A stretch of DNA of 64,000 nucleotides, from contig NDFF03000055.1 in assembly GCA_002150815.3 (NCBI GenBank), forward strand, positions 124,001 to 188,000. Reading direction: 5' to 3'. Under the pieces are notes generated by a model. The model searched no databases. It worked only from the letters and a program-made list of their open reading frames with translations, and was not told where the DNA came from. The translations under genes were made by a program, and so were the position numbers. How positions within the stretch are numbered: the first letter of the stretch is position 1; every line of letters starts with the position of its first letter. Below are positions 41,455-60,562 of this stretch, one piece after another. The stretch comes from Grammothele lineata. Taxonomy: Eukaryota > Basidiomycota > Agaricomycetes > Polyporales > Polyporaceae.

Positions 41455-42189
41455 GGTGGTGATGAGGGTCGGTGGAGGCGGTGGACTTGGTGATGGAGGA
41501 GGAGGCGGAGTCCTTGCAGGAAGTATGGGCTGGGGAGCGTGGATTGGGGATCCTGGTGCTGACGGTTGTGGAGTGGGCTTGGTGTTCGAAGGCCCTGGTG
41601 TGGGTTGTCGTGGTACTGGAGTAGGGAGACGGGATGAGGGTCTGGTGCGAGGTGCTGAGATGGGGATCGAGGGTTCTGGTATGCGTCTGGGGTTTTCAGG
41701 TGTTCCGGAGTCCCACGCGCTTCTTCGTACTCGTTGGACACGATCTAGTACAACTCCGTCCTTGCCTGTGGTGTAGACCCAGCCTAGAGTGTCTGACCAG
41801 GTGATAACCCGTAATCCGATGAAGCGTTGTTCGTCGCGAAGGTCTGATGCTGAGGGAGGTCTGTCCGCGCTTTGGTCTGCTAGTGGAGGTTCGTTGCTGG
41901 CTCCAGATGCTACCGGGTACCCGCGTTTCCTGTGGATCTTCTGTCGGTTTGCTTCGCTGGGCTTCTCAAAGTCCTTGTGTCGATTCGCGTCTTCCGGGTC
42001 GTAGCTAAGTCTGTGTGGGCAGGGTTGTTCGCTGCAGAATTTCCACTCGCGGGGTTCTTCTTGAAGGTGTCGGTCAGCGACGTCTTCCTTGTCGTAGACG
42101 TGTTGGCTATCGCTGGTGCACTCCAGGGTGGCTATGTGTGTTCGGTGTTCGCCTGGACTTAAGGAAGTCGGCGAGTAGATGAGTTTGAC
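41455..42189 (-). other. ATG-free open leader frame upstream of and in phase with Gypsy-1 gag
   Basis: Translated in the gag frame, the whole stretch between the LTR and gag is open and looks like protein. It holds EHRTHIATLECTSDSQHVYD, a Cys/His segment WKFCSEQPCPHR followed by RHKDFEKP, then FIGLRVITWSDTLGWVYTTG and a Pro-rich end running into gag. No ATG exists in any of the three sense frames. An in-frame CTG at 42126-42124 has the context GCCACC-CTG-G, the best Kozak context possible, and would add 224 residues to Gag. Whether it is translated is inference. Confidence 0.65.
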
Positions 42190-42191
42190 CT
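42182..42191 (-). other. Self-priming primer binding site
   Basis: Two bases inside the 5' LTR the sense strand reads AGGTCAAACT. This is the exact reverse complement of AGTTTGACCT in the LTR (42371-42362), which lies about 30 nt after the LTR TATA box and so is at the expected 5' end of the RNA. Priming by the transcript's own 5' end is known for Tf1/sushi elements. Confidence 0.7.
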
Positions 42192-42193
42192 AA

Positions 42194-42610
42194 TGTTACG
42201 CCGAGGCCAGCGCGGGCGCCTATAGACGTACGTTGTGCGCACGCGGTCGAGGGTCGAGGGGTCTAGGAGGACGTACGCCGAAGAGGCGAAGTCGAGCACT
42301 GTGGTAGAGGGCGAGCGACACACGGGGGTTCTATGGGGAGAGAGGCCTCGATTGGAAAAGGAGGTCAAACTGAGGAATGCCCTCAGGAAGACCCAAGCTA
42401 TATAAGTACATGAGGACAATAACTATGGACAATCGCGAGAGAGTCCTAGACAATAGAGACAGGGGCGCGAGACGATGACTCCAAGTGAGTCACAATGAGT
42501 CGTACGTACAATAGCGATGTTGAATCGCCGCGGGACCGAATGGTACAGAGGTTGCGCTCATTGAGGAACAGGAAAGGAAAAAGAAAATACCGGGCAGGAA
42601 TGTTGTAACA
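42194..42610 (-). repeat. 5' LTR of Gypsy-1
   Basis: 417 bp, with TATA (CTTATATAG on the minus strand, about 42407-42399) and a predicted start near 42371. Its outer side directly joins a KDZ-like transposase fragment. Confidence 0.93.
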
Positions 42611-43484
42611 GTATCAGCATGTTCGCAAGCGGCTGATGGTCATTGCCGATGACACCGACGAAGAGAACTACCCTGCCCTCACGGCGGCCGACTGCACGCA
42701 ACTTAACCTCTATTATAAGGACTGTAAGCCCGGCCAAAAGAAGGAGCTCTCTTGGATATAGAAGACCCACGTCCACGTCAGCGGGGAGGTCGACGTCTAC
42801 AAGGCAGAAGGCTAGTCTTATACACATATGACGAGTATGGATTTTACTTACAGTATTAACAGGCGTTTGCGTGGAGTGGTTCACCGTCAGCGCGCGTTGT
42901 GCTCGCTGGAAAGAGGAATTGGGCCTCACGGAGGAGGAGATCTGCCGTGTGCAGCGATTCCTTCGCTACTGGTACCGATGGTGGCGCGAACGCGCTCGCT
43001 TACTGAAACTCGTGGGCGAAGAAGGAGAGGCGGCGTATGCGTCCCGGTACGTATTAGTGCGTATATGTATCATGAACGGTTATACTAACGTGGTGCTTGA
43101 CGCAGTAAATCAGCCATGTACCTCAAGCTGTACCAGGATCTCCGCGCGCACGTCCAAAGCACCTGCCCCCATCTTCTCGTTGACGAGAAGAAGAAGGTCG
43201 GCCCCGATGGTGAGCCCTTGGATGAGCTAGCAGATTGGGACGACAGCGAGTTGGACGTGGAGGATTCTGAGTGGTCGCCGTCCGACTACTCGGATTCGGA
43301 GACTGATGGGGATGAATTCAACACCGATGTTGACTTCACTGATGACATGGAGGACAATTACGAGGGCGATGAGGACGTGGTGGACAGCGAGGAGGATGAC
43401 AAGGAGGATGACAAGGAGGATGACGAGTACCTCGGCTACTTCAAATTGTATTCTATCGTACATACATCGCTCCGGGACGACTAA
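42611..43484 (+). pseudogene. C-terminal fragment of a KDZ-like transposase
   Basis: Coding sequence begins at the very edge of the Gypsy LTR. Pieces: TDEENYPALTAADCTQLNLYY, KKELSWI followed by TAG where family members usually have Trp, then after an intron VCVEWFTVSARCARWKEELG and LRYWYRWWRERARL, and after a second intron (GTACGT..GACGCAG) SRKSAMYLKLYQDLRAHVQS. The end is a long acidic tail up to LRDD. The pattern SWIW, then VEW..R.RA.RW.EE, then WW..R resembles the C-terminus of Kyakuja-Dileera-Zisupton transposases of basidiomycetes. This is recognition from memory, not an alignment. The N-terminal part is absent and does not appear on the other side of Gypsy-1. Confidence 0.55.
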
Positions 43485-43562
43485 GCCTACCAGCACAGGA
43501 ACAGCTGTTCCCCGGACGAGGATCTACGTACTCGCGCGGATGCATTCTACCCCACTATCGTG

Positions 43563-44165
43563 GTATCTAGATTATCACGTTCATGTACTGACCGTCGTGA
43601 CCGGTGCATCTAGATGTGCGTGCGCGCTCTCACCCTGGCGAGTGCATATAGATACGCGTGCGCACCCGCGCGCAATCTTCGCGAGTTTGCCATCTAGATG
43701 CCAAAACGCGTGTATAGTAGCCTTTGCGTGTGCGCATCTAGATAGCTCTGCGCGTGTGGTATAACTGGCATCTAGAGGCATCTAGATGGGAATGAAAGAG
43801 GTAACATTCATCGGTATAAGCAGTATCTAGATGTCGTATATACTCTTGCAACTTTAGCATCTAGATACGTGAGTTTCATATTGCCCTGACGTTCATGCGT
43901 ATAGTATCTAGATACGATTTTGCCAAGGCTATACCCTTGGTACTTCGACATCTAGATGGTCCATTGACCCTGACCCTGGCGGCACGGGTATGTGGTGTAT
44001 CTAGTTAGTTACATATCTAGATACGCAGCACTGTAACCTAAGAAGTACATGCTCAGCTATATACGCATCTAGATGGTACAACTAGATACTACATCCGCAC
44101 TCACACCAACTTGTATCTAGACGACATCTAGATGGGCTATGACTAATTAGTCAGTTTATCTAGTG
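43563..44165. repeat. Cluster of about a dozen ATCTAGAT palindromes
   Basis: At least twelve perfect copies of the 8-bp palindrome ATCTAGAT occur in 600 bp, with about six variants (for example ATCTAGAG, ATCTAGTT, ATATAGAT, ATCTAGAC), spaced roughly 20-60 bp apart in otherwise unrelated sequence. It follows the KDZ-like fragment and stops where the truncated Gypsy-2 begins. It may be the subterminal binding-site region of that DNA transposon. Confidence 0.85.
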
Positions 44166-44187
44166 ACGTTAACTGAAGTGGCTCCCT

Positions 44188-45895
44188 GGAAGGAAGCCCC
44201 TACCCCGTAGAAGTCCTATCGGACCATAAGAACCTCACCTACTTCCGAACAGCACAAAAGCTCAACTGGCGACAAGCCCAATGGAGCCTCTTCCTAACCC
44301 AGTTCGAGCTGCAGTTAAAGCATGTTCCCGGCACACGCATGGTTCAATCTGATACCCTGTCCCGTCTACAACACCTGAATCTGGAGGACAACGACAACGA
44401 AGCTGTTGTACTACTCCCAGACAAATTGTTTGTAGTGGCAATGGACATTCCCCTGGCAGAAAGAATCAAGGACATCCACACGCAGGATCAAGTTGTACTC
44501 GACGCCCTCGCGGCTGCCAAGGACGGCACGCCACTACCAATGAAGTCGACCCTTGCGAACTGGAAGTTCGAAGATGGACTAGTCTTCTTTAGGGACCGTT
44601 GCTACGTCCCTCCCAATCAGGACCTTAAGAGGGAAATCGTGCGACGATATCACGATCTTCGACCTATGGGACACCCAGGACAGTTTGGAACGTTGGAGCT
44701 GCTGAAAAGAGACTACTGGTGGCCCGGCATGGCAGTGTTTGTACGGAACTATGTCGCAGGTTGCGCAACTTGCCAGCAAACCAAGATCAACACTCATCCA
44801 ACCGTACCCCCACTCATGCCGATCCCTGCAAGGCCCAACGCTTACCCATTCGACACCACCTCAGTCAACTTCATCACCAACCTACCCCCATTTAACAGTT
44901 TTGATGCACTCATGGTCATGGCAGACCACGACGCTACGAAGGGGGTAATTCTTGCTCCTTGCACAAAAACCATCGATGCGCTAGGGACAACACACCTCAT
45001 CCACCAGAACCTGTACAAACACTTCGGACTACCAACGCGCATCATCTCAGATAGAGGCCCCCAATTCTCAGCAAAAGTCTTCCAAGAGCTCACCTGACTC
45101 ACAGGCATCAAGTCGTCCATAAGTACGGCGTATCACCCACAGACCGATGGAGGAACGGAGCGCATGAACCAGGGAATTGAAGCATACCTCCGGGCATTCT
45201 ATGCTAACCACCCGGAGACATGGTCGGACTTCTTGCCAGATTTGGAGTTCACACACAACCAAAGGCTCGCACAAAACCGCAACGCATCGCCTTTCTTCCT
45301 CATGATGGGCTACAACCCAAGGGCAATCCCATCAGTCACCCCCAAGACAGTCGTACCAGCGGTCGAAGAACGTCTCGACAACCTGGAGAAAGTCAGACAG
45401 GAAGCGATGGCAGCGCACGAGCTTGCACGATAACACATAGCGCAACGGATCACTCGGGGATTCAAACCCTTCGAAAAGGGTCAGAAGGTCTGGCTAGAAG
45501 CGAAGCACCTCCGCTTTCTCAAGGACAACAAAAAGCTGGCCATGAAAAGATAAGGCCCTCTCACGATCGTGGAAGTCCTTGGACCGCTTACGTACAAGCT
45601 GGACCTCCCTGCCCAATGGAAAATCCACCCCGTATTCCACGCCAGCCTTCTCACCCCGTACAAGGAGAACAACACGCACGGCCCGAACTATCTCCTTCCA
45701 CCACCTGACCTTGTCAAAGGAGAAGAAGAATGGGAAGTGGAAGCAATCGTCGGACATTGGAAACGATACGGGAAGATGCAATTCTTTGTCAAATGGAAAG
45801 ACTACCCGACAAGCGAAAACTCCTGGGAACCAGAGAGGAATTTGGAACATTTACAGGAAGTCCTGAAAGCTTATAAGCGCACCCATCGCCTCTGA
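44188..45895 (+). pseudogene. pol: Gypsy-2 pol fragment (RNase H end, integrase, chromodomain)
   Basis: One reading frame throughout, with stops at 45095-45097 (TGA, Arg in Gypsy-1), 45431-45433 (TAA, Gln in Gypsy-1) and 45551-45553 (TAA, Gln in Gypsy-1), and no frameshift. The integrase core is otherwise recognisable ([29 protein letters not shown] with the catalytic Asp before FIT changed to Asn, [17 protein letters not shown]). It ends with the chromodomain (EEEWEVEAIVGHWKRYGKMQ). Confidence 0.92.
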
Positions 45896-45907
45896 AATCT
45901 ACAACCA

Positions 45908-45964
45908 GTGCACTCGCACCCGCACTCGCACTCACACTCGCACTCGCACTCGCACTCGCACCCT
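45908..45964 (+). repeat. CACTCG microsatellite between pol and ORF3
   Basis: About nine imperfect CACTCG/CACCCG hexamers directly before ORF3. Gypsy-1 has a shorter, more degenerate version at the same place, and Gypsy-3 carries the reverse complement. Confidence 0.8.
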
Positions 45965-45974
45965 CACCACCAAC

Positions 45975-46790
45975 ATGTCCAGACACTTCCCCATCCGCAC
46001 ACGCCAGCAGACCCGTACCGTCGTCATCAACCTCGTCCAACTCCCTCGCCGCCACTTCGAGATCTTCCGCAACAGGCTTGTCGGCGAGGAGCATTACCTC
46101 GGCGATGTCCTCGACGTGGCCCGGGACGTGAACCTGGCTGTCCAGTATTCTCGCGAGTCCCTAGGGGCTGTCCAATCTGCGATGAACGCCCTCCACACCG
46201 CCGAACAGAATCTGGTCCACCAGCAGGACCGTCTCACCTATTCCCTTGAAACCATCGTTGACCACACCCACAGTCACATTCCCTACGTTCACGCCAGCAC
46301 CTACCACAACCTCCTCGACCCGCAGCAGCTCGCAGCAGCCAGAGCGGCCATCCCAGCCAACGACATCAATGTCCATCCTCCCCTGGTCCCTGCTCCTCCA
46401 GTCCCTCCACAGGTCCCCCATCTCTTGAACCCTCCTCCGTGCATCGCCCAGATGGCCCGCCGTGGCCGCCACCTCACCGGGCAAAGGAGCAACACGGGCA
46501 GCTCCTCCTCTCGTCAGTCCTGGCAGAGCCAACGCTCCGCCCGCATCGCTTACCCATCTACCACCCAGGCGCCTCCTCCCGTCGCAAGCACCAGTCAGGT
46601 GTCTCCTCCTGTCACTAGTTGCAGCTCGAGCCCCGGTTACGTGGGCCCCTACGAAGACTTCTTGGAGATGCAGAAGGACAAGTACGGTGTGGACTCGGAT
46701 GGCGAGATTCGTGTCGTCGACCGATGGGACGGCGAGGAGGTGGAAGACCCCATGGCAGGCGAAGGCTCGCCCGACGATACCGAGGTCTGA
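45975..46790 (+). CDS. Gypsy-2 ORF3, unknown protein of 271 residues
   Basis: Same length, start and stop position as Gypsy-1 ORF3, with many scattered amino-acid differences (for example FEIFRNRLVG against FDILRDRLIG and THSHIPYVHA against VHGHVPHVHA) but no stop or frameshift. It is identical to the Gypsy-3 copy. Intactness next to a triply broken pol is the notable point. No known domain. Confidence 0.72.
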   Translation: MSRHFPIRTRQQTRTVVINLVQLPRRHFEIFRNRLVGEEHYLGDVLDVARDVNLAVQYSRESLGAVQSAMNALHTAEQNLVHQQDRLTYSLETIVDHTHSHIPYVHASTYHNLLDPQQLAAARAAIPANDINVHPPLVPAPPVPPQVPHLLNPPPCIAQMARRGRHLTGQRSNTGSSSSRQSWQSQRSARIAYPSTTQAPPPVASTSQVSPPVTSCSSSPGYVGPYEDFLEMQKDKYGVDSDGEIRVVDRWDGEEVEDPMAGEGSPDDTEV

Positions 46791-46827
46791 GACGCTACAG
46801 GGTAGCGTCAGGATAGAGCAGGGGTAA

Positions 46828-47245
46828 TGTTACAACATTCTGGCCCGGTATTTTCTTTTTCCTTTCCTGTTCCTCAATGAGCGCAACCTCTGTACCATTC
46901 AGTCCCGCGGCGATTCAACATCGCTATTGTATGTACGACTCATCGTGACTCACTTGGAGTCATCGTCTCGCGCCCTTGTCTCTATTGTCCGGACTCTCTC
47001 GCGATCGTCCATAGTCATTGTTCCCCATGTACTTATATAGTTTGGGTCTCCCTGAGGACGCTCCTTAGTTTGACCTCCTTTCCCAATCAAGGCCTCTCTC
47101 CCCACAGAACCCCCGTGTGTTGCTCGCCCTCTACCACAGTGCTCGACTTTGCCTCTTCGGCGTACGTCTACCCAGATCCCTCGACCCTCGACCGCGTGTG
47201 CACGACGTACGTCCCATAGGCGCCCGCGCTGGCCTTGGTGTAACA
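46828..47245 (+). repeat. LTR of Gypsy-2
   Basis: 418 bp with TGTTAC..GTAACA ends and the conserved TATA and TTAGTTTGACCT start region. Confidence 0.92.
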
Positions 47246-48701
47246 CAGGGTTGCCGCCGCTAGCCCCATTCCCATAGTACACGACTTACCTCTTCCCGGC
47301 CATACAGCACCCTTCAAGACACATGGCATCTGTCATTCAGTATGTCAGTCTGCGACATGTTATCACATATCCTCTGAACCTTATCTCACAGGTCTGTACC
47401 ACTGGCTGCAGCATACGGTGTGACACCCTAAAGCAGAGTGGGAGAGAGTGTGGGATAGCGTACATTGGGGCTGGAAAGTCTCTGGCGAGATTGAGCACAC
47501 CAACTGATACATACTGCATAGCCCACAGCATTCCATCTCATGCCCCTCTCAGCCCCGCCCATCCTCAGACAAGCCCGTGCCCGTGCCCAGCCCACCTCCT
47601 CCGGCCTGCAGCTGTCATGGCAGGGGCCGCCACAAGGACAAACAAACAGAAAGCGCTGGGCTTACTTGTGGGGCAAACAAATAGAGGTGTCACGATGGTG
47701 GACAAACAGAGGTGTGACGAGGGGCAGTGCCGTTAGGCTGCAAGCAAGGCAGGAGTCTAGCAAAGAGGATAGATTGGAGGAGGACTCCGAGGTACAGAGG
47801 AGGGGATAACAGAAGAACAAGTCTGCCCTCTCAGGGTCAGACAGGGGGTCCTTATATACTTGTGGGGGGTCTACAATACACTACCTATGATTGGACGCTA
47901 AAGATAGGGGAATATCAAATGGTTGCCAAGGGAGTGAGTCTGGATTGCATCCGGGTGATCCAGAGCTCAGGACACATGAAATAGGAATGGCCGGAAGGAT
48001 CCGGAGGAGTGACATCATCCATGAAGTAAGTCGTATGTAATAGGGCCCAGAGGGGTCCTGCCATGTGGTCTGTAGGGTTCCCTGAAGGGTTAGGGGTTCT
48101 CCCGTCCTGGGTTCGATCCCTGCAAGGGGCGAAACAAATAGGGGCACCTTTCCTGGGCGTCAAGACCACGTGAGATTGAAAACCGTTACAGCAGCCATCG
48201 CCAGACGTATATGCTGGCATCGAGACTGTCAGCAACTGCGAGTACAACACTGCGATGCATCTGCACAACCAGACTGTGCCCTCCATGCACGCATTTTTGA
48301 CCGCATGTGCCTATGGGGCAGCGTCAGTGCCATACACAGTGTGCATATTTCGTGAGTCCGTGGCGGCACGGTGAGGTGGTTACACCTATCCAACCAACCT
48401 AAACTGGCTGAGAGGACTAGCAAAGACCTAAAACACCCAGGTAGTATAAAAGGGGGCGTTAAAAGGGGAGTCAGCCTCAAGTTCCCTATATGCCAGAGAG
48501 GTAGGATAGAGGAGAAAGGGGGAGGGGCGAAGAAGTTATAGATATCTTCAGTTTCTGCGGAGGGTTCCGCGACGTTCTGCGAGGTGGCAACTTTAAACGG
48601 GGGGGACTCGGGAATTTGTGGGCAGGACTTCATGAAAGGGGATTCATAGATGGAAAAACTTTAACGCAGGAAAGGCTCGCTGGTTCGCAAAGTAAAGTTG
48701 C
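47246..48701. other. Unassigned sequence between Gypsy-2 and the hAT nest
   Basis: About 1.45 kb of low gene content. A string GGGTTCGATCCCTGC near 48108-48122 looks like an RNA polymerase III B box, but no matching A box or tRNA fold is visible. No coding frame is convincing. Confidence 0.5.
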
Positions 48702-48702
48702 T

Positions 48703-48949
48703 ATGGGTAGGAGCTCTATTACGGATGACGTGGCCATACGCTCCATGGAGAGCCTTCAAAAGGAGGAAATGCTATCGCTTGTGGAATAGAAACACTCTAG
48801 GACAAAAGAAGAAAATGCACTGGACTAATTAAAATATTGCTGTTATGCAGAGAAGGAGAATATAGAGAGGGAACTTGAGCTTCTGAGTTGTGCGTCACAG
48901 AGAGATACATGGTGGTGTATTTTGGAGTTCCGCAGAGAGCTCTGTTGTG
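48703..48949 (+). pseudogene. Decayed coding fragment, possibly coiled coil
   Basis: One frame reads MGRSSITDDVAIRSMESLQK, KEEMLSLVE, stop, KHSRTKEENALD, stop, then AEKENIERELELLSCA and QRDTWWCILEFRRELC up to the hAT insertion point. The Glu/Leu-rich composition suggests an old coiled-coil gene with two stops. The family is not recognised. Confidence 0.35.
48942..48949. repeat. Left target-site duplication of the hAT element
   Basis: CTGTTGTG, repeated exactly at 56253-56260. Confidence 0.9.
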
Positions 48950-49172
48950 TAGGGCATAGCACGGGTCGGGTAAACCCGCTCAGGGTACGGGTATATACCC
49001 ACGCGGGTCAGGGTACGGGTCTGTGGGCGTGTACCCGAGGCAAACCTGTACCCGACCCGCGTACCTGCAGGATCAGTACCGAATACTAGAGTACTTTCTA
49101 CACAACCATCTTAGCAAGGTGCTTGAGGTTGGCTGAAGGTATGTTCAAAGCAAATCCCCACTACTTCGAGCG

Positions 49173-49836
49173 GACTTGATTGTGCTTACGAGCTCGCAGC
49201 TTTTCAAGGATGTGACGTTGTTCCTTCCTCGCCTTGAATCGAACCTCGCCACTTTTATGATCCCCGCAATAGAAGCCCTCTTGAAGAGTCAAGCGCACTC
49301 TCAGCAGTTCTGGACAACACAGCATCTTGATCCAGGTCACTCTTTGCCTCGCTCTGAAGACACTAGACAAATATTATAACCTCATGGATTCATCTGACCT
49401 CTGTTCAATCGCAGTCAGTTTGTATAGTTCACTCGGGTTAGAACTTTCTGCATTGCTGGTAGTAAATAACTCTCATACAGGTTCACATAGTGCTGAGTGC
49501 CCCGCATCTCATATAAACTCGTTTGTTTCAGAATGAGGTTCAATTACACCAATGCTTGCATTCATGGTGCTCGCAAGCTCGCCCGAGAGTCGGGACACAT
49601 TCGACCACAACTATATCTTGAAGTTGTGCTAGACGAGAACTCAGATATCCAAAAACTAGTTGCTCCCGCGATGCCGACGCAGGAGAACCGGAATTTCGCA
49701 GGGACAAGCGCAGTGTGGTGAGTTCAATCGATACCTGAAGGCCGATGCCAAAGACAGCATCGTCGGCCCACTCATATGGTGGCTCAAGCATCGCGACATG
49801 TACCCTCGTCTCCCGCGTATGGCACCTGATTATAGC
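49173..49836 (+). pseudogene. hAT transposase remnant, first part
   Basis: Broken frames carry LFKDVTLFLPRLESNLATFM, ALKTLDKYYNLMDSSDLCSI and, just before the nested insertion, EFNRYLKADAKDSIVGPLIW and KHRDMYPRLPRMAPDY. The last two are the start of the hAT dimerisation domain. Several stops and frame changes are present. The rest resumes at 55649 after the mariner. Confidence 0.75.
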
Positions 49837-49924
49837 TAGTTGCAGCAGCAGATGATGTAGGAATATTGTAATACGAACTGGTACCCTGCCTGTCCCCTGT
49901 TTGCAATACGAACTGGCACTGTAT

Positions 49925-50594
49925 GTATTGTAATACGAGCCACCTGGGAAACCCGAGAGCACCTCCGGAAAGCTTACAAAGCCTGCCATATAGAGTAGTG
50001 AGCCCCGGAGGGAGCCCGGGGGGTCACCTGACCAGCCTCCGGGGGCAGCAGGTGCACCCGGGTGGCTGATCTGGCTGCCCCGGGCTTAGATCTCCCTAGA
50101 TCTCTCTAAATCTGGGGAAACCTGGGGAGATCTAGGCTTCCCCCCGGGATTCCCGGACCTGGCAGCCCCTCCCGGCGCTTTTGGGGGGTTGCCCGAGGTC
50201 CCCGGGCGTCGTCCCACGGGCGCTTATTCTCCCGCGCCCTCCCTGCGGGCGCACTGGCTGGATTTGGCAGGTGCAGGTGGGGGCAGCAGGCAGGGGTGGG
50301 TGCCCCCCACTGCAGCTCCCTCAAATCTTCACCGATTTTGATGAAGCGAAATGCGTTCTGTGCGCATTTCCAGGGCGTTTCTAACGCACCCAAGACGTTG
50401 AAATTTGGCTCAAAACTGATGAAGCTATGGGGGATGCACTATTAGCACCAATTTCCCACTGATGGAGCTATATCTCCGTCAGTTTTTTTGTCCCCTCGGA
50501 ACGGTTTGGTTTCCCTGAAAGCTGTCAAATATGCGGTTTCAACGAGCCCAAGAACATAATGATCCGTCCACTGGACACAAAGTTATGATACATT
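49925..50594 (+). repeat. Left inverted arm of the 2.6-kb element
   Basis: GC-rich, 670 bp. It includes CTAGATCTCC/GGAGATCTAG strings and one ACGGGCGCTTATT motif (50216-50228). Confidence 0.9.
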
Positions 50595-51710
50595 TACCTC
50601 CTTCAGCTTAGGGGAACAGTACTCCTCTTATATCTTGAGCATTTCTTGATCGTTTTTCAAATGGTTTTGTTTGGCAGGTAGGGTGCATTATGTAGAAGCT
50701 TTGTGCCAAATTCTGTGCAAATGCAATGGCTAGAAACTGTGCAACACCTCCATCAATAATGCAAAAATGCGACAGATAGATTTCAGGTACTATTAGCTAC
50801 ACCATGCTTAGTACAATGCAGTTACAGGTGATACATGCATATGGCAGACATGGTTTACAGCCAGGATGAAGCCAAGGGCTGGTGGTCCAAGTACCCTGGC
50901 AGGCCAACCCTGAACTGTGTAGAGTAAGACGCGTTTGTAAGCGAAATAAGCGCCCGTAAGACGCGTCTTATTGCAGCCAAGCACACCTCAAACATGATCT
51001 CCTTTAGGACCTACACTCATATCAAATAACCAGAGTATATAGCCATGCAGAACATCAAAAATGCGACTCACCATTGAAGGAATCATGCAATTTGGTGAAG
51101 GAACAGAGGAGATATGTGTGATTAGGTGTTGGAGAGGGTGATGTACAGCAGTGTTGCACGGAATTGTGGCTTGCAATGCACCCCAGTGAGAGCCCTCCTA
51201 GGCCTTCATCTCACATATCTCAGCCAGTACTCAATGAAATTACATGGTTCTTTCACCAAACTGTCGCATTTTGAGCTTCTAAGCATATGACACTATCCTT
51301 TCACACCATAAACAGAGTGGGGCATACCAACACCCTAGAACATGGTGAGTGTGGCGCGTTTTCCCACGGGCGCTTATTTTAACGTTTGAGATCGAGACAT
51401 CATAGCTCCCCTCACAGGGGGTGTGTGACTATGGAATTTTGTAGAATACATTTAGACGGCTCTGTGACAATGGGTATGAAATTTGGAGGGAAGAAGAAAA
51501 GTGGAGGGGTTGTTAGAGTGAGAACAAAGTAGAACATCAGCACATAGAGTGGGAAGATAGAGGAACTACAACCAACCATGGAAATCCTTTCATAATTAAG
51601 GACAACAATGTAATGGATGTCTGGTATCTGTGAAAGCAAATCGCTTCAAATTCCATTGACATTTGGCGAAGATATTGACTGTACAGTATTCACCTATCCC
51701 AAACTAGAAG

Positions 51711-52380
51711 AATGTATCATAACTTTGTGTCCAGTGGACGGATCATTATGTTCTTGGGCTCGTTGAAACCGCATATTTTACAGCTTTCAGGGAAACCAAA
51801 CCGTTCCGAGGGGACAAAAAAACTGACGGAGATATAGCTCCATCAGTGGGAAATTGGTGCTAATAGTGCATCCCCCATAGCTTCATCAGTTTTGAGCCAA
51901 ATTTCAACGTCTTGGGTGCGTTAGAAACGCCCTGGAAATGCGCACAGAACGCATTTCGCTTCATCAAAATCGGTGAAGATTTGAGGGAGCTGCAGTGGGG
52001 GGCACCCACCCCTGCCTGCTGCCCCCACCTGCACCTGCCAAATCCAGCCAGTGCGCCCGCAGGGAGGGCGCGGGAGAATAAGCGCCCGTGGGACGACGCC
52101 CGGGGACCTCGGGCAACCCCCCAAAAGCGCCGGGAGGGGCTGCCAGGTCCGGGAATCCCGGGGGGAAGCCTAGATCTCCCCAGGTTTCCCCAGATCTAGA
52201 GAGATCTAGGGAGATCTAAGCCCGGGGCAGCCAGATCAGCCACCCGGGTGCACCTGCTGCCCCCGGAGGCTGGTCAGGTGACCCCCCGGGCTCCCTCCGG
52301 GGCTCACTACTCTATATGGCAGGCTTTGTAAGCTTTCCGGAGGTGCTCTCGGGTTTCCCAGGTGGCTCGTATTACAATAC
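51711..52380 (-). repeat. Right inverted arm of the 2.6-kb element
   Basis: 670 bp, reverse complement of the left arm. One inner base differs (CTGTCAAATATG against CTGTAAAATATG). Confidence 0.9.
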
Positions 52381-52732
52381 GAAAATGTCCGTGGTTTATT
52401 GCAAACAGGGATAGGCAAGGTACCAGTTCGTACTACAATACGAGTACATCAGCTGGTGGTTGCAGAACGATACGGAATCGCGTTTTGCACGCGAACCCAT
52501 GAGCGCCCAATTTGATGGGGCATGTGACCCGGTTCAGCAGGCCCGAGCGGCCGCGCGCCACGCCCCCTCCGCGTGACTTGGGCGCCTACCTCACAGGGAG
52601 CTGCGTCAAGCTCGACAGTCGAGCTTACAAACACCCCCCACCACCTCCGTCTCTGCTGCCCTCAGTGCTCACATCCATTCCTTTACATTTCCTCCTCTTT
52701 ACAACCACTCTACTTCGATTTCTTTCAGCATT

Positions 52733-54361
52733 ATGTCACCCTCTTCTCGATCTTCTTCTCCGGGCGCTGCCTCGGCTACTTCCGAATCCAGCACAGCTTC
52801 CGAGCCACTTCTCGATCCTGTCAACTTCTCGATTTCTTTGACACTCTCTGCTCCTGCGCCTCCTCCGCAGGAGAAGCCCAAGCAAAAGGCCAGTAAACCT
52901 GAGGTCAAGACCAAGGAGCTCTCTTTCCGTCCCTCTTCAGGCAACTACCTCGCCTTTCTTCGCGAGGTTCTCTTGCAGTGCAGTCTCGACACCCTTCGAG
53001 TCTCGGACAAGCGCCCCTATCCCTTCAAGTACTATTGCAAGGGTGTAACGTGAGTTATTGTCTCTCTTGAGCTTTATACATATACGCTAACTCATGGCTA
53101 AGCAAATCGAATGCTGTCTCTGTGAAGAATGCCACCGAGTACTCTGCACTCGTGGCAAAGATCCGTGATCGGAAGCTCACATCGGTGAATGTTCTGATCA
53201 CCGAGCTTGAGATCCGTGCACGCTGCAAGGAGGTATGTCATAGTCTGTGCTTCCTGTATGTGTCTATCTCACTGTGTGATTAGAACACTCAGAATAGCGA
53301 CTCGGATAGTGCCTCGCACGAGGAGACTTCAGCATCAGCTACGGTGAGTGATTGTGTCACAATGCAGATTTGTAGAATATGTTTGCTGAAACAATGTATG
53401 AATGTCTAGGTGCTTAGCTCTTTTGAAGAGATCATTGCTGGTCATCGGTTGAAGCTTGAGGAGCGTTACACCACCTCGAGTGGATGCTGCCAGTACGATC
53501 ATGGGATCGCTGGGTGCACACCCGTTTCCCTTACCCCTTATTGTCTCTGCCAGTGGGCAGTTGCTATTATAAGTGTTAGTTGTGTTCTATTGAATGTGAT
53601 GACTGATTCGCTCGCAGCATGAAGGCAAGGCTACGTATGACAAGCCACCTTCAATCGCCTGCTTTGATCCTGTCAAGCAGCACCAGTCTCTTCGCTCTGC
53701 TCCCCCTACCGAGACTTCCCAGTCGGAAACGGCTGAGATTCTACGGGCTGTGTTTGGCTTTATAGGGGGTCAGCACGGTGCTGGTGAGCCAACGACTCCT
53801 CGTAAGCACAATCACTCTGCTTGCTCGATCCCACCAAGCCCCTCAGACCTGTCTCGTTGCCTTTCCTATATTGCTGGACGCCCGGAGTTTGGTCTCCCGG
53901 ATGTTCAGCAGTATCAGGTGGGCTTAGAGCGGGAGGGCTATGCGCCTGATCTCATTGGGGATCTTGATCAGGATGACCTTACTGCGAGTCCCATCAGGAT
54001 GTTTAAGGGTGATGCTATGCGTATGAAGCGTGCCTGCAAGGCATGGTGGGATGCACCTGATGGTAAGCACTTGCGCCCCAGTCATGTGGCTCCTGCTAGT
54101 CAGCATACCCCTGCTGCTAGCTCGAGCAGCACAGCTGTGATTGTGCACTATGAGCGTCGTTGGATTGAGCCAGATGGGAAGATTACTGGCAGAAACAGCT
54201 TCTTCGCGCCGCCAATGTCCCACAACAAGGACTGGACCCCAGCTGATCCTGTCCCTGATCCGGCGACCGATGGACAGTTGTTTTATCAGGATGTTGCACG
54301 TGGGGATGAGTGGTTTGAAGTTCCTCCTGATTTTATTGTTCCTGAGCCAGAGGCTGTGTAG
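52733..54361 (+). CDS. Second gene of the mariner-type element, SAM-like domain protein
   Basis: A multi-exon gene convergent with the transposase. Exon 1 encodes a Ser/Pro-rich start (MSPSSRSSSPGAAS) and ELSFRPSSGNYLAFLREVLL with KRPYPFKYYCKG. Short middle exons give SALVAKIRDRKLTSVNVLIT, then LSSFEEIIAGHRLKLEERY. The last exon holds DLSRCLSYIAGRPEFGLPDV, YQVGLEREGYAPDLIGDLDQ and MFKGDAMRMKRACKAWWD, which together look like a SAM domain. Then come YERRWIEPDGKITGRNSFF and the end PDFIVPEPEAV. I recall similar proteins beside transposases in basidiomycetes, but no function. It may bind DNA or the transposase. Exon borders in the middle (53,050-53,640) are uncertain. Confidence 0.6.
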
Positions 54362-54410
54362 CAGATGCTTTTTTGCAACCTATATTAGAGTATGTTCATG
54401 TAATAGGGCA

Positions 54411-55469
54411 CTACAGATAACCTGATGCCTTGAACCATCCCTCAGCCATTGTTGGTGTGACATCCTCACAAGCCTCACTAATGTCCATCAGGCTGACTTT
54501 TTTTGGTTCACGGCGGCGAAGATGCCCCTTGATGTATGAGAATGCAAGTTCGATAGGGTTCCAATCAGGGGAGTAGGGGGGTAGGAAAATCAGCTTGCAA
54601 TCTGCTGCTAGTTAGAAAGATATTTCATAAATGTGTAATTGTAACACACGGGCTTCATCCTCCACCAACTCACACACAGCTGCAGCATGATGAATGTTAC
54701 AGTTGTCCAATATGAGAACACTCCGTGGTTCTGGGTATGGGTTGGTAAGAGGTATCTGGAGTATGCGTTAGCTGAGAGATGCCTTATAATTGATAGGAGC
54801 ACAAACCACAAAATCATGAAGAAACTCAATAAAAAGCTCCGAGGTAACTGAGCCTTCAAAGATCTTATGTGTGATGATGCCATCCAAGGTGAGAATAGGG
54901 AGGAGGGAGTAGCGCTTGCCCCGCACAAAGCAAGCACGCTGCACACAGCAGGCTCCTAAAGGTGCCCAGCCTCGCTTGCGTCGCAGGGCACACTTGTCAA
55001 CTGCACTTTCATTGGCAAATATGAGCATCCAGGGACCGGGAGCTTCAAGACCGATTTGATTCATGAATGCTGCTCGGATGAGGTTGTTGCGCTCTGCAGC
55101 CTGTTGGGAGACAAGCTTTGACGAGTAATGCATGCGCTGAAGGGTGCGAACGAGTGTCGAAAAGGAGACTGTGGTGCCATACTCAGCTGTGAGCTTGTGC
55201 TGAATCTCATCCAAGTAGAGAGTTGGATTCTCAGAAAGGATGGCTCGGATGTACTCGGCAGCTTCCGTGGAGAGGATACGGTTGCGGCCAGCATGCGGTG
55301 CAAAAGGATTGGTGATAGTGCCGAATTTGCGGACATATTCAAGGGTTTTGTAGGCTAGGCTCTTCTTGATCCCCAAGATGTTGCAAATCTCAGATACAGA
55401 GCGGCCCTGATCTAGGAAAAGAACAGGAATTCGAGCCTTGAGGTCCTTGGATACTGTCCGTCAAGGCAT
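54411..55469 (-). pseudogene. IS630/Tc1-mariner-type transposase, inactivated
   Basis: The frame starts MP-stop-RTVSKDLKARIPVLF, so codon 3 is TGA. A helix-turn-helix follows (VSEICNILGIKKSLAYKTLE), then LSENPTLYLDEIQHKLTAEY and the DDE domain MLIFANESAVDKC, KRGWAPLG, LPILTLDGIITHKIFEGSVT, LILDNCNIHHAA, PPYSPDWNPIELAFSYIK, ending in WFKASGYL. Two introns (after HDFV and after EDEAR) are removed with normal signals. The first catalytic Asp, usually in ADES, is Asn here (ANES); the second Asp and the Glu are present. Two independent lesions make it inactive. Confidence 0.85.
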
Positions 55470-55648
55470 GGTGGGTGTGAGGCTGCAGTGCGAGCAAAGA
55501 ACGAGCTCAAGAGGCTTGATCAGGTTGTTCAATGGACAAGGCGGCGAGCAGGCGCCGGCGGCGCGTGGGGCGCTTATCTACATCACGCGACTCGAACGAA
55601 GCGCCAGCCGTCGCGCGCAAAACGCGATTCCGTATCATTCTGCAACTA

Positions 55649-55872
55649 GCTGTAAGTACCTCTCTTTCCCTTGTATGTTCCAGCTCTCTTGCAGTGATTG
55701 TGCCAGTTACTAATACCGCTTGTACGTTTTCATAGCTTCTTCTGTCAAGGTGAAACATGTTTTCAGTCGTGGTACGCCGCTAGGACTTTCGCATGTACGC
55801 AATGCTGAGCTCCGAGTCTACTCGGTCCGTCCTATGCTAATGTCAGTAGAGCACTCTTGGGCTCATACATGA
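55649..55872 (+). pseudogene. hAT transposase remnant, last part
   Basis: After the mariner right end, SSVKVKHVFSRG and LSHVRN followed by VRPMLMSVEHSWAH resemble the hAT dimerisation end (SSVxxERxFSRG..LSxxRN..). This continues the segment broken at 49836. Confidence 0.6.
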
Positions 55873-56252
55873 TGCCGATGATCTTAAGGAGGTCGCATGA
55901 CTTTCTGAAGTTGTCGGGGACGAGTCAGATATCCCTGAGGAGACTGGGACAGGCTCAGATGACAATCGCAGTAAGCCTCTGAAGATGATATGGATTAGTA
56001 GATTTATCGTGGGTTTATGAGGGAGGACGCGTGTGATGTCCTCTGGGGGAAATACACTCGTAAGTGATCTTGATCTCCGTACATCTCTCCATCTATGGAC
56101 GGGTATACCCGCAAAAACCCGTACCCCCGTCCGAAATACCCATACCCTCTCAAAACCCATACCCTACAACCAAGGGTACATGGACCGCGCGGGTCCGGGT
56201 ATGGGTACGCTTGAAAAACCCGTACCCGACCCGTGCCATGTGGCATGCCCTA

Positions 56253-56260
56253 CTGTTGTG
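56253..56260. repeat. Right target-site duplication of the hAT element
   Basis: CTGTTGTG, identical to 48942-48949. Confidence 0.9.
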
Positions 56261-56573
56261 ACTCGTGAGTGCCTAACTAAACAGTACACAACATGGCCAG
56301 ACTATAACAAATACTACAATCAGGTGACTCCCCGGTCCTTACCAGACCGACGGCGATGCACAAAAAGAACAAATGTCGGCCGCGGAGAGCCAGAGATGAG
56401 TGTGTGCGGAAGGCTTGAGAACACCTGTCCTAATGCATCGGAAGATTGCGAAGATCCCCGTCAATGGACGTGGTTCAAGCCGCTGCAGCAAATGAACATG
56501 GAGCTACCTGATTGCCATATGCACATGCAGACGATGCAGGGTGCACATGCGATCACGGCTTTTGATGGAGTGG
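56261..56573. other. Short spacer between the hAT and Gypsy-3
   Basis: 313 bp with no recognisable gene or repeat. Confidence 0.5.
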
Positions 56574-56991
56574 TGTTACGCCGAGGCCTGTGCGGGCGCC
56601 TATGGGATGTATGACGAGCGCACGCGGTCGAGGGTCGAGGGATCTGGGTAGACGTACGCCGAAGAGGCAAAGTCGAGCACTGTGGTAGAGGGCGAGCAAC
56701 ACACGGGGGTTCTGTGGGGAGAGAGGCCTTGATTGGGAAAGGAGGTCAAACTAAGGAGCGTCCTCAGGGAGACCCAAACTATATAAGTACATGGGGAACA
56801 ATGACTATGGACGATCGCGAGAGAGTCCGGACAATAGAGACAAGGGCGCGAGACGATGACTCCAAGTGAGTCACGATGAGTCGTACATACAATAGCGATG
56901 TTGAATCGCCGCGGGACTGAATGGTACAGAGGTTGCGCTCATTGAGGAACAGGAAAGGAAAAAGAAAATACCGGGCCAGAATGTTGTAACA
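56574..56991 (-). repeat. LTR of Gypsy-3
   Basis: 418 bp with TGTTAC..GTAACA ends. The first 60 bp carry about ten differences from the Gypsy-2 LTR; the rest looks identical. Confidence 0.92.
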
Positions 56992-57028
56992 TTACCCCTG
57001 CTCTATCCTGACGCTACCCTGTAGCGTC

Positions 57029-57844
57029 TCAGACCTCGGTATCGTCGGGCGAGCCTTCGCCTGCCATGGGGTCTTCCACCTCCTCGCCGTCCCATCGGTC
57101 GACGACACGAATCTCGCCATCCGAGTCCACACCGTACTTGTCCTTCTGCATCTCCAAGAAGTCTTCGTAGGGGCCCACGTAACCGGGGCTCGAGCTGCAA
57201 CTAGTGACAGGAGGAGACACCTGACTGGTGCTTGCGACGGGAGGAGGCGCCTGGGTGGTAGATGGGTAAGCGATGCGGGCGGAGCGTTGGCTCTGCCAGG
57301 ACTGACGAGAGGAGGAGCTGCCCGTGTTGCTCCTTTGCCCGGTGAGGTGGCGGCCACGGCGGGCCATCTGGGCGATGCACGGAGGAGGGTTCAAGAGATG
57401 GGGGACCTGTGGAGGGACTGGAGGAGCAGGGACCAGGGGAGGATGGACATTGATGTCGTTGGCTGGGATGGCCGCTCTGGCTGCTGCGAGCTGCTGCGGG
57501 TCGAGGAGGTTGTGGTAGGTGCTGGCGTGAACGTAGGGAATGTGACTGTGGGTGTGGTCAACGATGGTTTCAAGGGAATAGGTGAGACGGTCCTGCTGGT
57601 GGACCAGATTCTGTTCGGCGGTGTGGAGGGCGTTCATCGCAGATTGGACAGCCCCTAGGGACTCGCGAGAATACTGGACAGCCAGGTTCACGTCCCGGGC
57701 CACGTCGAGGACATCGCCGAGGTAATGCTCCTCGCCGACAAGCCTGTTGCGGAAGATCTCGAAGTGGCGGCGAGGGAGTTGGACGAGGTTGATGACGACG
57801 GTACGGGTCTGCTGGCGTGTGCGGATGGGGAAGTGTCTGGACAT
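57029..57844 (-). CDS. Gypsy-3 ORF3, unknown protein of 271 residues
   Basis: Translation identical to the Gypsy-2 ORF3 and co-linear with that of Gypsy-1. Intact although neighbouring pol has three stops. No recognised domain. Confidence 0.72.
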   Translation of the reverse strand: MSRHFPIRTRQQTRTVVINLVQLPRRHFEIFRNRLVGEEHYLGDVLDVARDVNLAVQYSRESLGAVQSAMNALHTAEQNLVHQQDRLTYSLETIVDHTHSHIPYVHASTYHNLLDPQQLAAARAAIPANDINVHPPLVPAPPVPPQVPHLLNPPPCIAQMARRGRHLTGQRSNTGSSSSRQSWQSQRSARIAYPSTTQAPPPVASTSQVSPPVTSCSSSPGYVGPYEDFLEMQKDKYGVDSDGEIRVVDRWDGEEVEDPMAGEGSPDDTEV

Positions 57845-57923
57845 GTTGGTGGTGAGGGTGCGAGTGCGAGTGCGAGTGCGAGTGTGAGTGCGAGTGCGGG
57901 TGCGAGTGCACTGGTTGTAGATT

Positions 57924-59105
57924 TCAGAGGCGATGGGTGCGCTTATAAGCTTTCAGGACTTCCTGTAAATGTTCCAAATTCCTCTCTGGTTCCCAGGAGT
58001 TTTCGCTTGTCGGGTAGTCTTTCCATTTGACAAAGAATTGCATCTTCCCGTATCGTTTCCAATGTCCGACGATTGCTTCCACTTCCCATTCTTCTTCTCC
58101 TTTGACAAGGTCAGGTGGTGGAAGGAGATAGTTCGGGCCGTGCGTGTTGTTCTCCTTGTACGGGGTGAGAAGGCTGGCGTGGAATACGGGGTGGATTTTC
58201 CATTGGGCAGGGAGGTCCAGCTTGTACGTAAGCGGTCCAAGGACTTCCACGATCGTGAGAGGGCCTTATCTTTTCATGGCCAGCTTTTTGTTGTCCTTGA
58301 GAAAGCGGAGGTGCTTCGCTTCTAGCCAGACCTTCTGACCCTTTTCGAAGGGTTTGAATCCCCGAGTGATCCGTTGCGCTATGTGTTATCGTGCAAGCTC
58401 GTGCGCTGCCATCGCTTCCTGTCTGACTTTCTCCAGGTTGTCGAGACGTTCTTCGACCGCTGGTACGACTGTCTTGGGGGTGACTGATGGGATTGCCCTT
58501 GGGTTGTAGCCCATCATGAGGAAGAAAGGCGATGCGTTGCGGTTTTGTGCGAGCCTTTGGTTGTGTGTGAACTCCAAATCTGGCAAGAAGTCCGACCATG
58601 TCTCCGGGTGGTTAGCATAGAATGCCCGGAGGTATGCTTCAATTCCCTGGTTCATGCGCTCCGTTCCTCCATCGGTCTGTGGGTGATACGCCGTACTTAT
58701 GGACGACTTGATGCCTGTGAGTCAGGTGAGCTCTTGGAAGACTTTTGCTGAGAATTGGGGGCCTCTATCTGAGATGATGCGCGTTGGTAGTCCGAAGTGT
58801 TTGTACAGGTTCTGGTGGATGAGGTGTGTTGTCCCTAGCGCATCGATGGTTTTTGTGCAAGGAGCAAGAATTACCCCCTTCGTAGCGTCGTGGTCTGCCA
58901 TGACCATGAGTGCATCAAAACTGTTAAATGGGGGTAGGTTGGTGATGAAGTTGACTGAGGTGGTGTCGAATGGGTAAGCGTTGGGCCTTGCAGGGATCGG
59001 CATGAGTGGGGGTACGGTTGGATGAGTGTTGATCTTGGTTTGCTGGCAAGTTGCGCAACCTGCGACATAGTTCCGTACAAACACTGCCATGCCGGGCCAC
59101 CAGTA
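57924..59105 (-). pseudogene. pol: Gypsy-3 pol fragment (integrase, chromodomain)
   Basis: Contains the same three stop codons as Gypsy-2 in the same places (after ELARK-type and KR contexts and after FQEL-T) and the same Asp-to-Asn change at SVNFIT. Interrupted at 59105 by the Copia element. Confidence 0.92.
59101..59105. repeat. Presumed left target-site duplication of the Copia element
   Basis: CAGTA belongs to the Gypsy target (CCACCAGTAGTCTC in Gypsy-1, 37892-37906). The right copy would lie outside the window. Confidence 0.5.
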
Positions 59106-59378
59106 TGTTGAACTTACCGTATTTAGGACTGTTACGTAGTCACGGACACTGGATTGCTGTACGATACTTCTATCTTTCGATACCGCATGGTCTCTTGTCT
59201 TCTATCACTGTCCTGTGTATTCCTGTGCGTTCTACGACGCTTCTGTGATCCTTTGGCTGTGCGTAGCTGTACTTGTGACCTGTTCCTTTGTTCCGGATAT
59301 GTACATCCTTGTATTTGTATTAGTTCACATGCGGACATCCTTACCATCACTCGCTTACGTATGCTGCTCCTGCTCGTG

Positions 59379-59386
59379 TATATAAG
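59379..59386 (+). promoter_or_regulatory. TATA box in the Copia LTR
   Basis: TATATAAG; the transcript should start near 59410, just before the duplicated segment at 59415. Confidence 0.65.
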
Positions 59387-59437
59387 GAGGACTTTCCCCT
59401 ACGCACTGCTCCTCAGTCTTCGCTCTCATACTGAGGA

Positions 59438-59491
59438 GTAAGTACACTCGTTTACTATATGCTTACTATGCTTACTTACATGTACTTGTAG
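59438..59491 (+). other. 54-nt intron in the Copia LTR (5' leader)
   Basis: GTAAGT at 59438 and TTGTAG ending at 59491. Its removal would join CTGAGGA to TCGCATTCTGTGTG, and exactly this joined sequence (with one inserted base) is present without the intron at 59554-59575. Three ATGs lie inside the intron and would be removed. Confidence 0.75.
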
Positions 59492-59644
59492 TCGCATTCT
59501 GTGTGTCTTACAGGTACCGTTATATGCAATATAACTGAGTCTTCGCTCTCATACTGAGGATCGCATTACTGTGTGTCTTACAGGTGTCACACGGCGGCGC
59601 TGCCCTTCAGGTTCAGCACACCACTGCGGTTCTAGACTTCGACA

Positions 59645-59656
59645 GGTTATGAGCCC
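59645..59656 (+). other. Candidate Copia primer binding site
   Basis: GGTTATGAGCCC adjoins the presumed LTR end. It resembles the TGGTATCAGAGC-type sites of Copia elements only loosely. Confidence 0.4.
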
Positions 59657-60022
59657 TGAGCTCTAGCCGCTTCGTCGTCACTCGCGCGCTCTCTCCCACA
59701 TCGACGACGTCTTCGAGGCGTTACTCTCTCCGTGCAGGCTTCTGGGTTAGTGTCGAGTTGTACTCGCACACCCGCTCATCCTTTCTTTCTTTCTTGTGGA
59801 ACGGGTCTACGATTCGTCGAAAGCCCTGACCGCTGTTCGTTACTCCCTTGCTCGATCTAGTCGTGGATAGTTCCGCGCTAGGCAGCAGTCACTCGACCTC
59901 GGCTCTGCGATTGGTCCTTATCGGCAAGGATTGGTCGTGGGGTGGCTCAACAGCGTTCATTTTTCTTCCACTCTACCCTGCACTGGAGGTGTTGCCTCTG
60001 TCAATCATCGCGCTTCCGCTGA

Positions 60023-60562
60023 ACTGCGCATATCGCCGTGGCGTCAGTCAACTCAAACTCATCTGAGACGTTCGACTGTAGCCATCTTTACCACCGCTAT
60101 CGATCAGGTGAACAACGTGATACCTTCTGGGACGAAGAAGAACGTGCTTGGTACCTTTGTGATAACCAGCCGTGTCCAAATCGTTACGTAGAAGTTGTCC
60201 CTCCTGACAACATCTCAAGACATCGTACATTTGTCGAACCAGAAGAAGGTCAAGTTTGTCGCCCTATCACACCAGTTCCTTCCTCAGAATCTGCCGTTTC
60301 CGAGCAGATTGTACTCGAATCTCCCGAGCTTCCACCGCTCCCTGACTCTCGTGCATCCTCTCCAACTGAACTTCTCCCTCCGCTACCGGATTCTCGTGCG
60401 TCATCGCCGACCGCACTTGACTTTGTCTATCCTCCTCTTCCTCCTTCGCCTCCGCTCCCTGTCGTCGTTCAACCTCTCTATCTCGACGTCCTCTATCCTC
60501 CGCACACTACACCGCCTCCTCCCTCGTACACATCGGATAACTTCTTCCTCCGGTTCGTCATC
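60023..60562 (+). other. ATG-free open leader frame upstream of and in phase with Copia gag
   Basis: Open for 180 codons between a TGA at 60020 and the gag ATG. It reads like protein: SETFDCSHLYHRYRSGEQRD, the Cys motif WYLCDNQPCPNR followed by RHRTFVEP, then a Pro-rich linker with a twice-repeated PPLPDSRASSPT unit. No ATG occurs in any sense frame from 59652 to 60562. An in-frame GTG at 60038-60040 (GCC-GTG-G) is a possible non-AUG start; splicing from an upstream exon is an alternative. Confidence 0.6.

Follow-up and report, generated by a model that had tools for sequence, protein, structure and literature searches.

The window, as the whole stretch analysed here is called, is 64,000 nucleotides (nt) of a Grammothele lineata contig (NDFF03000055.1, positions 124,001 to 188,000). 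It contains two long terminal repeat (LTR) retrotransposons, designated Gypsy-1 (minus strand) and Copia (plus strand). An earlier note on this DNA had described a Trp-Cys motif in the leaders of both elements, and both motif segments were found in the window sequence. On the evidence below, it is fairly probable that Gypsy-1 and Copia each carry an in-frame Gag extension whose opening module, some 65 residues long and related between the two, is predicted to bind one zinc ion, is likely translated from a non-AUG start and has likely been exchanged.

Pfam matches identified Gypsy-1 as a Ty3/gypsy chromovirus (Retrotrans_gag above the cut-off, Ty3_capsid just below it, RVT_1, RT_RNaseH, rve and Chromo). 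Its open reading frames (ORFs) placed reverse transcriptase (RT) and RNase H ahead of integrase, with a chromodomain at the integrase end. Copia, with Retrotran_gag_2 and an integrase ahead of RVT_2, was assigned to Ty1/copia. The Gags are otherwise different, as had been claimed: Retrotrans_gag with a sub-threshold Ty3_capsid match in Gypsy-1, and Retrotran_gag_2 in Copia.

The Gypsy-1 extension was comprised of module 1 (41902-42126, minus strand; 75 codons, predicted to bind zinc), module 2 (41668-41901, minus strand; ...ITWSDTLGWVYTT...WDSGTPENP...) and a Pro-rich linker (41455-41667, minus strand). It is followed by gag from the first in-frame AUG (ACCACC-ATG; 40498-41454, minus strand), encoding a capsid and a weakly matched zinc knuckle. 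The Copia extension contained module 1 (60068-60268, plus strand; also predicted to bind zinc) and a Pro-rich linker (60269-60562, plus strand); no module 2 was seen in Copia. The Copia gag-pol frame, counted from its first in-frame AUG (60563-64000, plus strand), continues past the window end. The Copia motif segment, WYLCDNQPCPNR, begins at 60149 and its RHRTFVEP finishes at 60241, exactly where the earlier note had placed them. The Gypsy-1 segment, WKFCSEQPCPHR, begins at 42045 on the minus strand and spans 42045-41959, rather than the 42031-41963 given previously; its start is 14 bases from the stated one. The spacers before RH, nine residues in Gypsy-1 and 11 in Copia, had been described correctly.

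Sequence relatedness and coding of the extensions

The genome searched comprised 41.8 Mb in 252 contigs, and each search evaluated the best candidates only, so that distant members may escape. The Gypsy-1 leader (174 residues) retrieved 24 rows: 22 from its own family, including two from one frameshifted copy and one 37-residue fragment, and two Copia copies (E=8.9e-5). Reciprocally, the Copia leader (109 residues, threshold E=10) retrieved 21 rows, two from Copia and 19 from Gypsy-1, with a best cross-family E of 4.8e-7. A shorter Gypsy-1 query (61 residues, same threshold) gave 23 rows from the Gypsy-1 and Copia families only. Smith-Waterman alignment of the two segments scored 108 (shuffled maximum 70), and 0 of 5,000 shuffles reached the real score. 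With the W..C..QPCP.R core masked, the score was 49, which 7 of 2,000 shuffles equalled or exceeded. Altogether the similarity spanned about 60 residues, extending beyond the motif itself.

A search by codon pattern gave 30 matches (6 in the reversed control), 21 of them in the two families and nine elsewhere. Taken alone, this search would suit a chance likeness of two short Cys-containing stretches, the off-element count being close to the control. Three of the nine (C38, C81 and C225) were read, and their sequences are not members. Chance, which the earlier note had named as what would refute its claim, is itself refuted by the reciprocal genome-wide searches, and the shuffle tests and module scores also speak against it; its probability is practically nil. 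The Gypsy-1 and Copia modules are related in sequence, and on the same searches and shuffles the claim of a shared N-terminal module holds.

The Gypsy-1 leader is open in the gag frame over 563 codons from stop to stop, with no in-frame ATG before MSNTP. The motif occurred in 20 Gypsy-1 copies, of which one (L019) is truncated upstream, leaving 19 that cover the position of a CTG described below. Fourteen of the 19 are open for more than 350 codons from that CTG. The broken copies L011, L014, L015, L018 and L020 were left out, and L002 was dropped as its leader protein is that of the window copy, leaving 13. Over these 13 copies, the ratio of non-synonymous to synonymous polymorphism (pN/pS) was 0.25 in module 1 (bootstrap 0.14-0.41), 0.14 in module 2, 0.08 in the linker and 0.06 in gag. 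The other two frames of module 1 gave 0.96 and 1.75, and those of module 1, module 2, linker and gag together ranged from 0.94 to 5.14. Between the two Copia copies, the linker contained 16 synonymous differences and one non-synonymous difference (Fisher P=7e-9). Given the low pN/pS in the gag frame and the Copia linker counts, the stretch is a coding Gag extension and not a leader alone: in the gag frame, both the Gypsy-1 extension and the Copia linker evolve as protein.

The same data bear on the proposal that what the elements share is a packaging or priming signal in RNA or DNA, with an incidental protein reading. The Gypsy-1 stretch does lie just 3' of the LTR, the usual site of such signals. 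Amino-acid change is avoided in one frame only, however, and the shared QPCP is spelled with different codons in the two elements (CAA CCC TGC CC vs CAG CCG TGT CC). As the main cause such a signal is refuted, and it is given very little weight.

Start codons, leaders and element layout

Neither the Gypsy-1 nor the Copia extension holds an AUG, and no Met codon was present in the extension of any of the 13 Gypsy-1 copies. With the module ahead of the usual start, translation would therefore need an unusual start codon. Seven near-cognate codons were considered (CTG, GTG, TTG, ACG, ATT, ATC and ATA). The sole one kept upstream of the Gypsy-1 motif was a CTG at -90 from the first W-x2-C Cys (42124-42126, minus strand; GCCACC-CTG-G), which is the predicted non-AUG start. 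It is in frame in 17 of the 19 covering copies, the exceptions being L014, with CTA, and the frameshifted L020. Its context included A at -3 and G at +4 in 17/17 copies and read ACC-CTG-G in 16/17. In-frame stops occurred upstream, at -108 to -126, in L014-L018. Two of these copies, L016 and L017, keep an open extension, whose start must be 3' of the stops. Gypsy-1 has the layout of a CUG-initiated Gag extension, namely an open AUG-free frame and a conserved in-frame CUG in good context. The context of the gag ATG was ACCACC-ATG in 10 of the 13 copies.

In Copia, a candidate start is an ACG (60068-60070, plus strand) at -90, the distance from the first W-x2-C Cys at which the CTG stands in Gypsy-1. 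A GTG at -120 (60038-60040, plus strand; ATCGCC-GTG-G) is the alternative candidate, and an in-frame TGA lies at -138. On this evidence, a non-AUG start of the extension is predicted to be likely.

The leaders contained few AUGs. A likely Gypsy-1 TATA box, TATATAG, was read from the sequence at 42398-42404 (minus strand), with an ATG (42411-42409) upstream of it; the LTR ATG at about -376, ahead of this box, is likely not transcribed. ATGs were counted over about 920 nt, starting 30 nt beyond the TATA box and ending at gag (L003, without TATATAG, was counted from -340). Seven of the 13 Gypsy-1 copies had no ATG in any frame, and shuffles gave 2.9 to 3.8. The 835 nt from -430 to +405 of Copia contained no ATG in the window copy and one in the second copy (expected 6.8). 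Between 59584 and gag, a single ATG is present in the window copy, at 59649, where it opens a 5-codon frame. The likely TATA box of the Copia 5' LTR, TATATAAG, was read at 59379-59386 (plus strand). Just past it, the LTR contains an intron-like stretch (59438-59583) with GTAAGT and then two TTACAG; splicing to the second TTACAG would take four ATGs out of the leader.

Splicing also offers another source for the start, in that the extension would be translated from an AUG in a spliced-on upstream exon rather than from the CUG. GTACGT donors are present in the Gypsy-1 LTR, ACACAG or ACATAG precedes the module in most copies, and the Copia LTR has its GTAAGT and two TTACAG sites. The available AUGs fit poorly, however. 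The one at about -376, ahead of the likely TATA box, is absent from three open copies (L008, L010 and L016); the one at about -525, also before the TATA box, gives a frame of 23 codons in 11/19 copies; and Copia has no ATG between TATA box and GTAAGT. A spliced-on start is considered unlikely.

Hairpins 3' of the CTG or of the Copia candidate starts were examined as a possible RNA signal and rejected, showing no excess over shuffles. Rfam gave no match at gathering score across 41400-42700.

The Gypsy-1 5' LTR (42194-42610, minus strand; TGTTAC...GTAACA) and 3' LTR (35381-35797, minus strand) were 99% identical across 300 nt. Despite this likeness, the flanks (GATAC at 42611-42615 and CCACC at 35376-35380) showed no 5-base target-site duplication. 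The pol region (36719-40621, minus strand) contained protease, RT, RNase H, a stop, integrase and chromodomain; in the window copy, the in-frame stop (38342-38344, minus strand) separates the RNase H part of pol from the integrase part. An extra ORF of 271 codons (35835-36650, minus strand) follows pol, ahead of the 3' LTR, and had no Pfam family above the cut-off in this first copy. An ORF of the same length was present in both other window copies (45975-46790, plus strand; 57029-57844, minus strand). Two Gypsy-1-like 3' parts (44714-47246 and 56573-59105) form an inverted pair of 2,533 nt, 9.3 kb apart and listed as 100% complementary, which suggests recent duplication or gene conversion.

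Other loci and the predicted zinc site

The genome contained 11 distant Gypsy-type gag places, of which eight were read; together with C244 these made nine loci, and one, C228, bore the module. The C228 module, SCDKLQHAHD...GRWHICHHPRCPNRY, stands behind a normal ATG. Its Gag matched that of Gypsy-1 at E=2.3e-22 with 30% identity and had no match to a Pfam Gag family, and its contig terminates 269 nt past the ORF. C228 is given the Ty3/gypsy name Gypsy-2, provisionally, because its Gag has no Pfam Gag family match and the Ty3/gypsy comparison covered Gag only. In a three-element comparison, the module scores were 100 for Gypsy-1 and Copia (shuffled maximum 60) and 67 for Copia and Gypsy-2 (shuffled maximum 59), neither being reached by any of 5,000 shuffles. 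Judged by alignment scores only, C228 probably carries a related module. Upstream of the Gypsy-2 Gag ORF lies a Met-free open frame of 288 codons (L096:1957-2820) whose stop TGA overlaps the Gag ATG (ATGA), an arrangement that would fit termination-reinitiation. For 14 of the 16 other Copia gag places, a stretch of 1.1-1.5 kb at the gag start was inspected by listing its ORFs and scanning for the motif; the module was present in 0/14, although a strongly changed module could escape.

Beyond this genome, protein searches with the extensions alone had no match up to a threshold of E=10. No relative was confirmed when IMG/VR was scanned with Gag and Copia queries, and GTDB contigs contained one distant Gypsy, L086, without the motif. 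The whole Gypsy-1 ORF retrieved 20 Gag homologues among the best 7,989 candidates, and a regex scan of the first 260 residues found the motif in none of the 20. Protein P0003, from another source, shares module 2 with Gypsy-1. Six Gags were picked for an N-terminal extension of the Gypsy kind: P0003, P0010, P0011, P0013, P0018 and P0019. Their positions 2-150 contained 0 Met in 894 residues, against 2.6% past residue 200, and because the six are related to each other they do not represent six independent events. P0011 and P0019, both distant Gypsy-type Gags, have V as their first residue instead of the M of their siblings, and no Met before residues 185 and 181, respectively; with the starts as called by their predictor, they may possibly have GTG-started Gag extensions. 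Alignment scores, taken without shuffles, did not establish module 1 in P0003 or P0010-P0019. P0020, with a long N-terminus, was rejected as a further family, its module score against Gypsy-2 being reached by 592 of 3,000 shuffles. In the titles and abstract openings of the open-licence papers listed, no description of the module, or of a non-AUG Gag extension in fungal elements, was found.

An alignment of 10 rows from the three elements contained invariant C, H, D, W, C, C, P and R, and the common pattern was C-x(4,5)-H ... W-x2-C-x4-C-P-x-R. The earlier note had suggested a zinc site with a Cys-Cys-His arrangement. The His of RH is absent in Gypsy-2 and the upstream Cys and His are invariant. 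With the RH His lost there, the predicted ligand set becomes C-x(4,5)-H plus C-x4-C: a zinc site is still predicted, with Cys-His-Cys-Cys as its ligands. In Gypsy-1 these are Cys 42120-42118, His 42102-42100, Cys 42036-42034 and Cys 42021-42019 (minus strand), invariant in 13/13 open copies. In Copia they are Cys 60077-60079, His 60092-60094, Cys 60158-60160 and Cys 60173-60175 (plus strand). The module is predicted to bind one zinc ion. Structure prediction, one of the checks that had been proposed, gave three short strands between the Cys-His and Cys-Cys ends in both AlphaFold2 models, but at a low mean pLDDT (predicted local distance difference test) of 58.6 and 52.7. The Cys-His and Cys-Cys pairs would hold zinc in a small beta-hairpin domain.

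A second zinc site, the Gag CCHC zinc knuckle, is likewise a small Cys/His site within Gag. In Gypsy-1 it is separate and C-terminal (CFRCRELGHGQWDC visible, E=0.33, below the cut-off), and the module differs from it in spacing.

Profile searches bear on whether each element independently captured the same host zinc domain. LTR elements are generally known to capture host domains, and two solved structures gave leads only: plant mitoribosomal mL40 with the module profile (7/10 rows Gypsy-1; E=0.004) and the RPB9 zinc ribbon with the Copia module (E=0.3). The second half of the module resembles the RPB9 ribbon in its aromatic-x-hydrophobic-C-x4-C-x2-R-aromatic sequence; the ribbon has two Cys pairs, whereas the first pair here is C-x4/5-H, and the comparison carries low-confidence models as well as E=0.3. 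As a source of the module, mL40 was rejected as weak: its match begins at profile position 21, past the Cys-His pair, and was absent when the Copia or the Gypsy-2 module was searched by itself. The best Pfam E values (0.024 and 0.066) were treated as chance, and NCBIfam gave no module match at E up to 1. Genome-wide, there was no non-element match at E up to 10, although an intron-split domain could escape. The host protein that the earlier note had proposed to look for thus has no convincing candidate in the genome, Pfam or solved structures, and capture from the host is decidedly unlikely.

Probable exchange between elements, and precedents

The module scores conflict with the element classes: Gypsy-1 and Copia scored 100 and the two Gypsy modules 57, in a set of three families that is too small for a tree. 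The Gypsy-1 module resembles its Copia counterpart more than its Gypsy-2 one, and passage between elements is therefore favoured over common descent. Of the two routes named earlier, exchange is the better, and capture of a host domain is unsupported, with no non-element match in the genome. The module could instead be an ancient Gag part that both superfamilies inherited and most lineages lost, without any exchange. It does occur in two Gypsy-type families besides Copia, losses in elements are cheap, and C244, a broken copy that is the closest Gypsy relative (70% gag identity), has no module in the stretch read. Inheritance with loss is nevertheless rather unlikely, given the closeness of the Gypsy-1 and Copia modules and the 0/14 other Copia gag loci with the module.

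The most far-reaching reading, slightly less likely than not, is that a zinc module belonging to retroelements moved between fungal Ty3 and Ty1 elements and is made as part of a second Gag isoform by non-AUG initiation and leaky scanning. The move between Ty3-type and Ty1-type elements would have occurred by template switching in mixed particles or similar. Scanning ribosomes would sometimes begin at the CUG of Gypsy-1, or at the ACG or GUG of Copia, giving a long Gag; the remaining ribosomes would continue to the gag AUG, producing the ordinary short Gag. The long Gag would bring the zinc domain into the particle in a matrix-like position, where it would contact a host factor or the element's own RNA.

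Several observations count against the explanation given at the outset. The protein, IMG/VR and GTDB searches found no copy of the module beyond this genome. Within the genome, the Gypsy-2 module as query matched itself only, and the Gypsy-1 and Copia module queries did not retrieve it. The Gypsy-1 to Gypsy-2 score was barely over its shuffled maximum of 55 (0/5,000). The AlphaFold2 models are weak, and Foldseek with the first of them gave nothing under E=2. Module 1 of Copia differed between its two copies by six non-synonymous and two synonymous changes, showing no constraint (P=0.67), and the Copia start codon is ambiguous. In the leaders, the other six of the 13 Gypsy-1 copies contain one ATG or two, all of them either out of frame or followed by a stop, and the deficit per copy is modest (P 0.015 to 0.22 over 13 copies that are not independent). 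An ATG at -343/-345 in L003, L005 and L013 lies just 5' of the counted stretch, so that the deficit depends on the assumed transcription start. Without splicing, the Copia leader would have five ATGs 3' of the TATA box, including four within the intron-like stretch, and RNA folding around the Gypsy-1 CTG was not unusual (z -0.87).

Overall, the observation is stronger than first stated, and its first reading is right in part. The invariant upstream Cys and His, the AUG-free extensions and the third element all go beyond the earlier note.

Precedents exist both for domains shared among retroelements and for CUG-started Gag extensions. Murine leukaemia virus (MLV) makes a CUG-started extended Gag besides its AUG Gag (PMC11775842). 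As in Gypsy-1, where use of the CUG is predicted, a long 5' leader contains, 5' of the gag AUG, a CUG in the same frame, and two Gags result. The comparison is of layout only: the MLV extension is glycosylated and belongs to a mouse retrovirus, whereas here a Cys/His module is carried by Ty3 and Ty1 elements that are likely fungal. PEG10 derives from a Gag. Its protein is made from an upstream CUG and from an AUG, as was shown by altering both codons (PMC2800197). PEG10 shares the use of CUG and AUG starts with Gypsy-1 (predicted for the CUG here) but is a human gene with 34 extra residues and, in the parts described, no Cys/His module. In bdelloid rotifers, additional ORFs are common to LTR and Penelope-like elements, and the authors favour likely exchange (PMC5408684). 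The same domain there spans unrelated retroelement types; it is a separate, partly enzymatic ORF3, whereas the module here is N-terminal in the Gags of Ty3 and Ty1 elements. Additional ORFs are also described in plant LTR elements (PMC7264820). New here are a Gag module common across the Ty1/Ty3 boundary and the fact that, in both elements of the window, it is coded 5' of the usual AUG.

If exchange took place, the capsid proteins of LTR elements trade accessory domains across the Ty1/Ty3 boundary, and the module would be a marker for tracing this trade in fungi. Should the non-AUG start be genuine, catalogues of genes that require an AUG overlook the N-terminal ends of these Gags, and the two-isoform Gag strategy of MLV and PEG10 would reach fungal elements. 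The extensions would then be, in layout, a fungal counterpart of MLV glyco-Gag that crosses the superfamily boundary.

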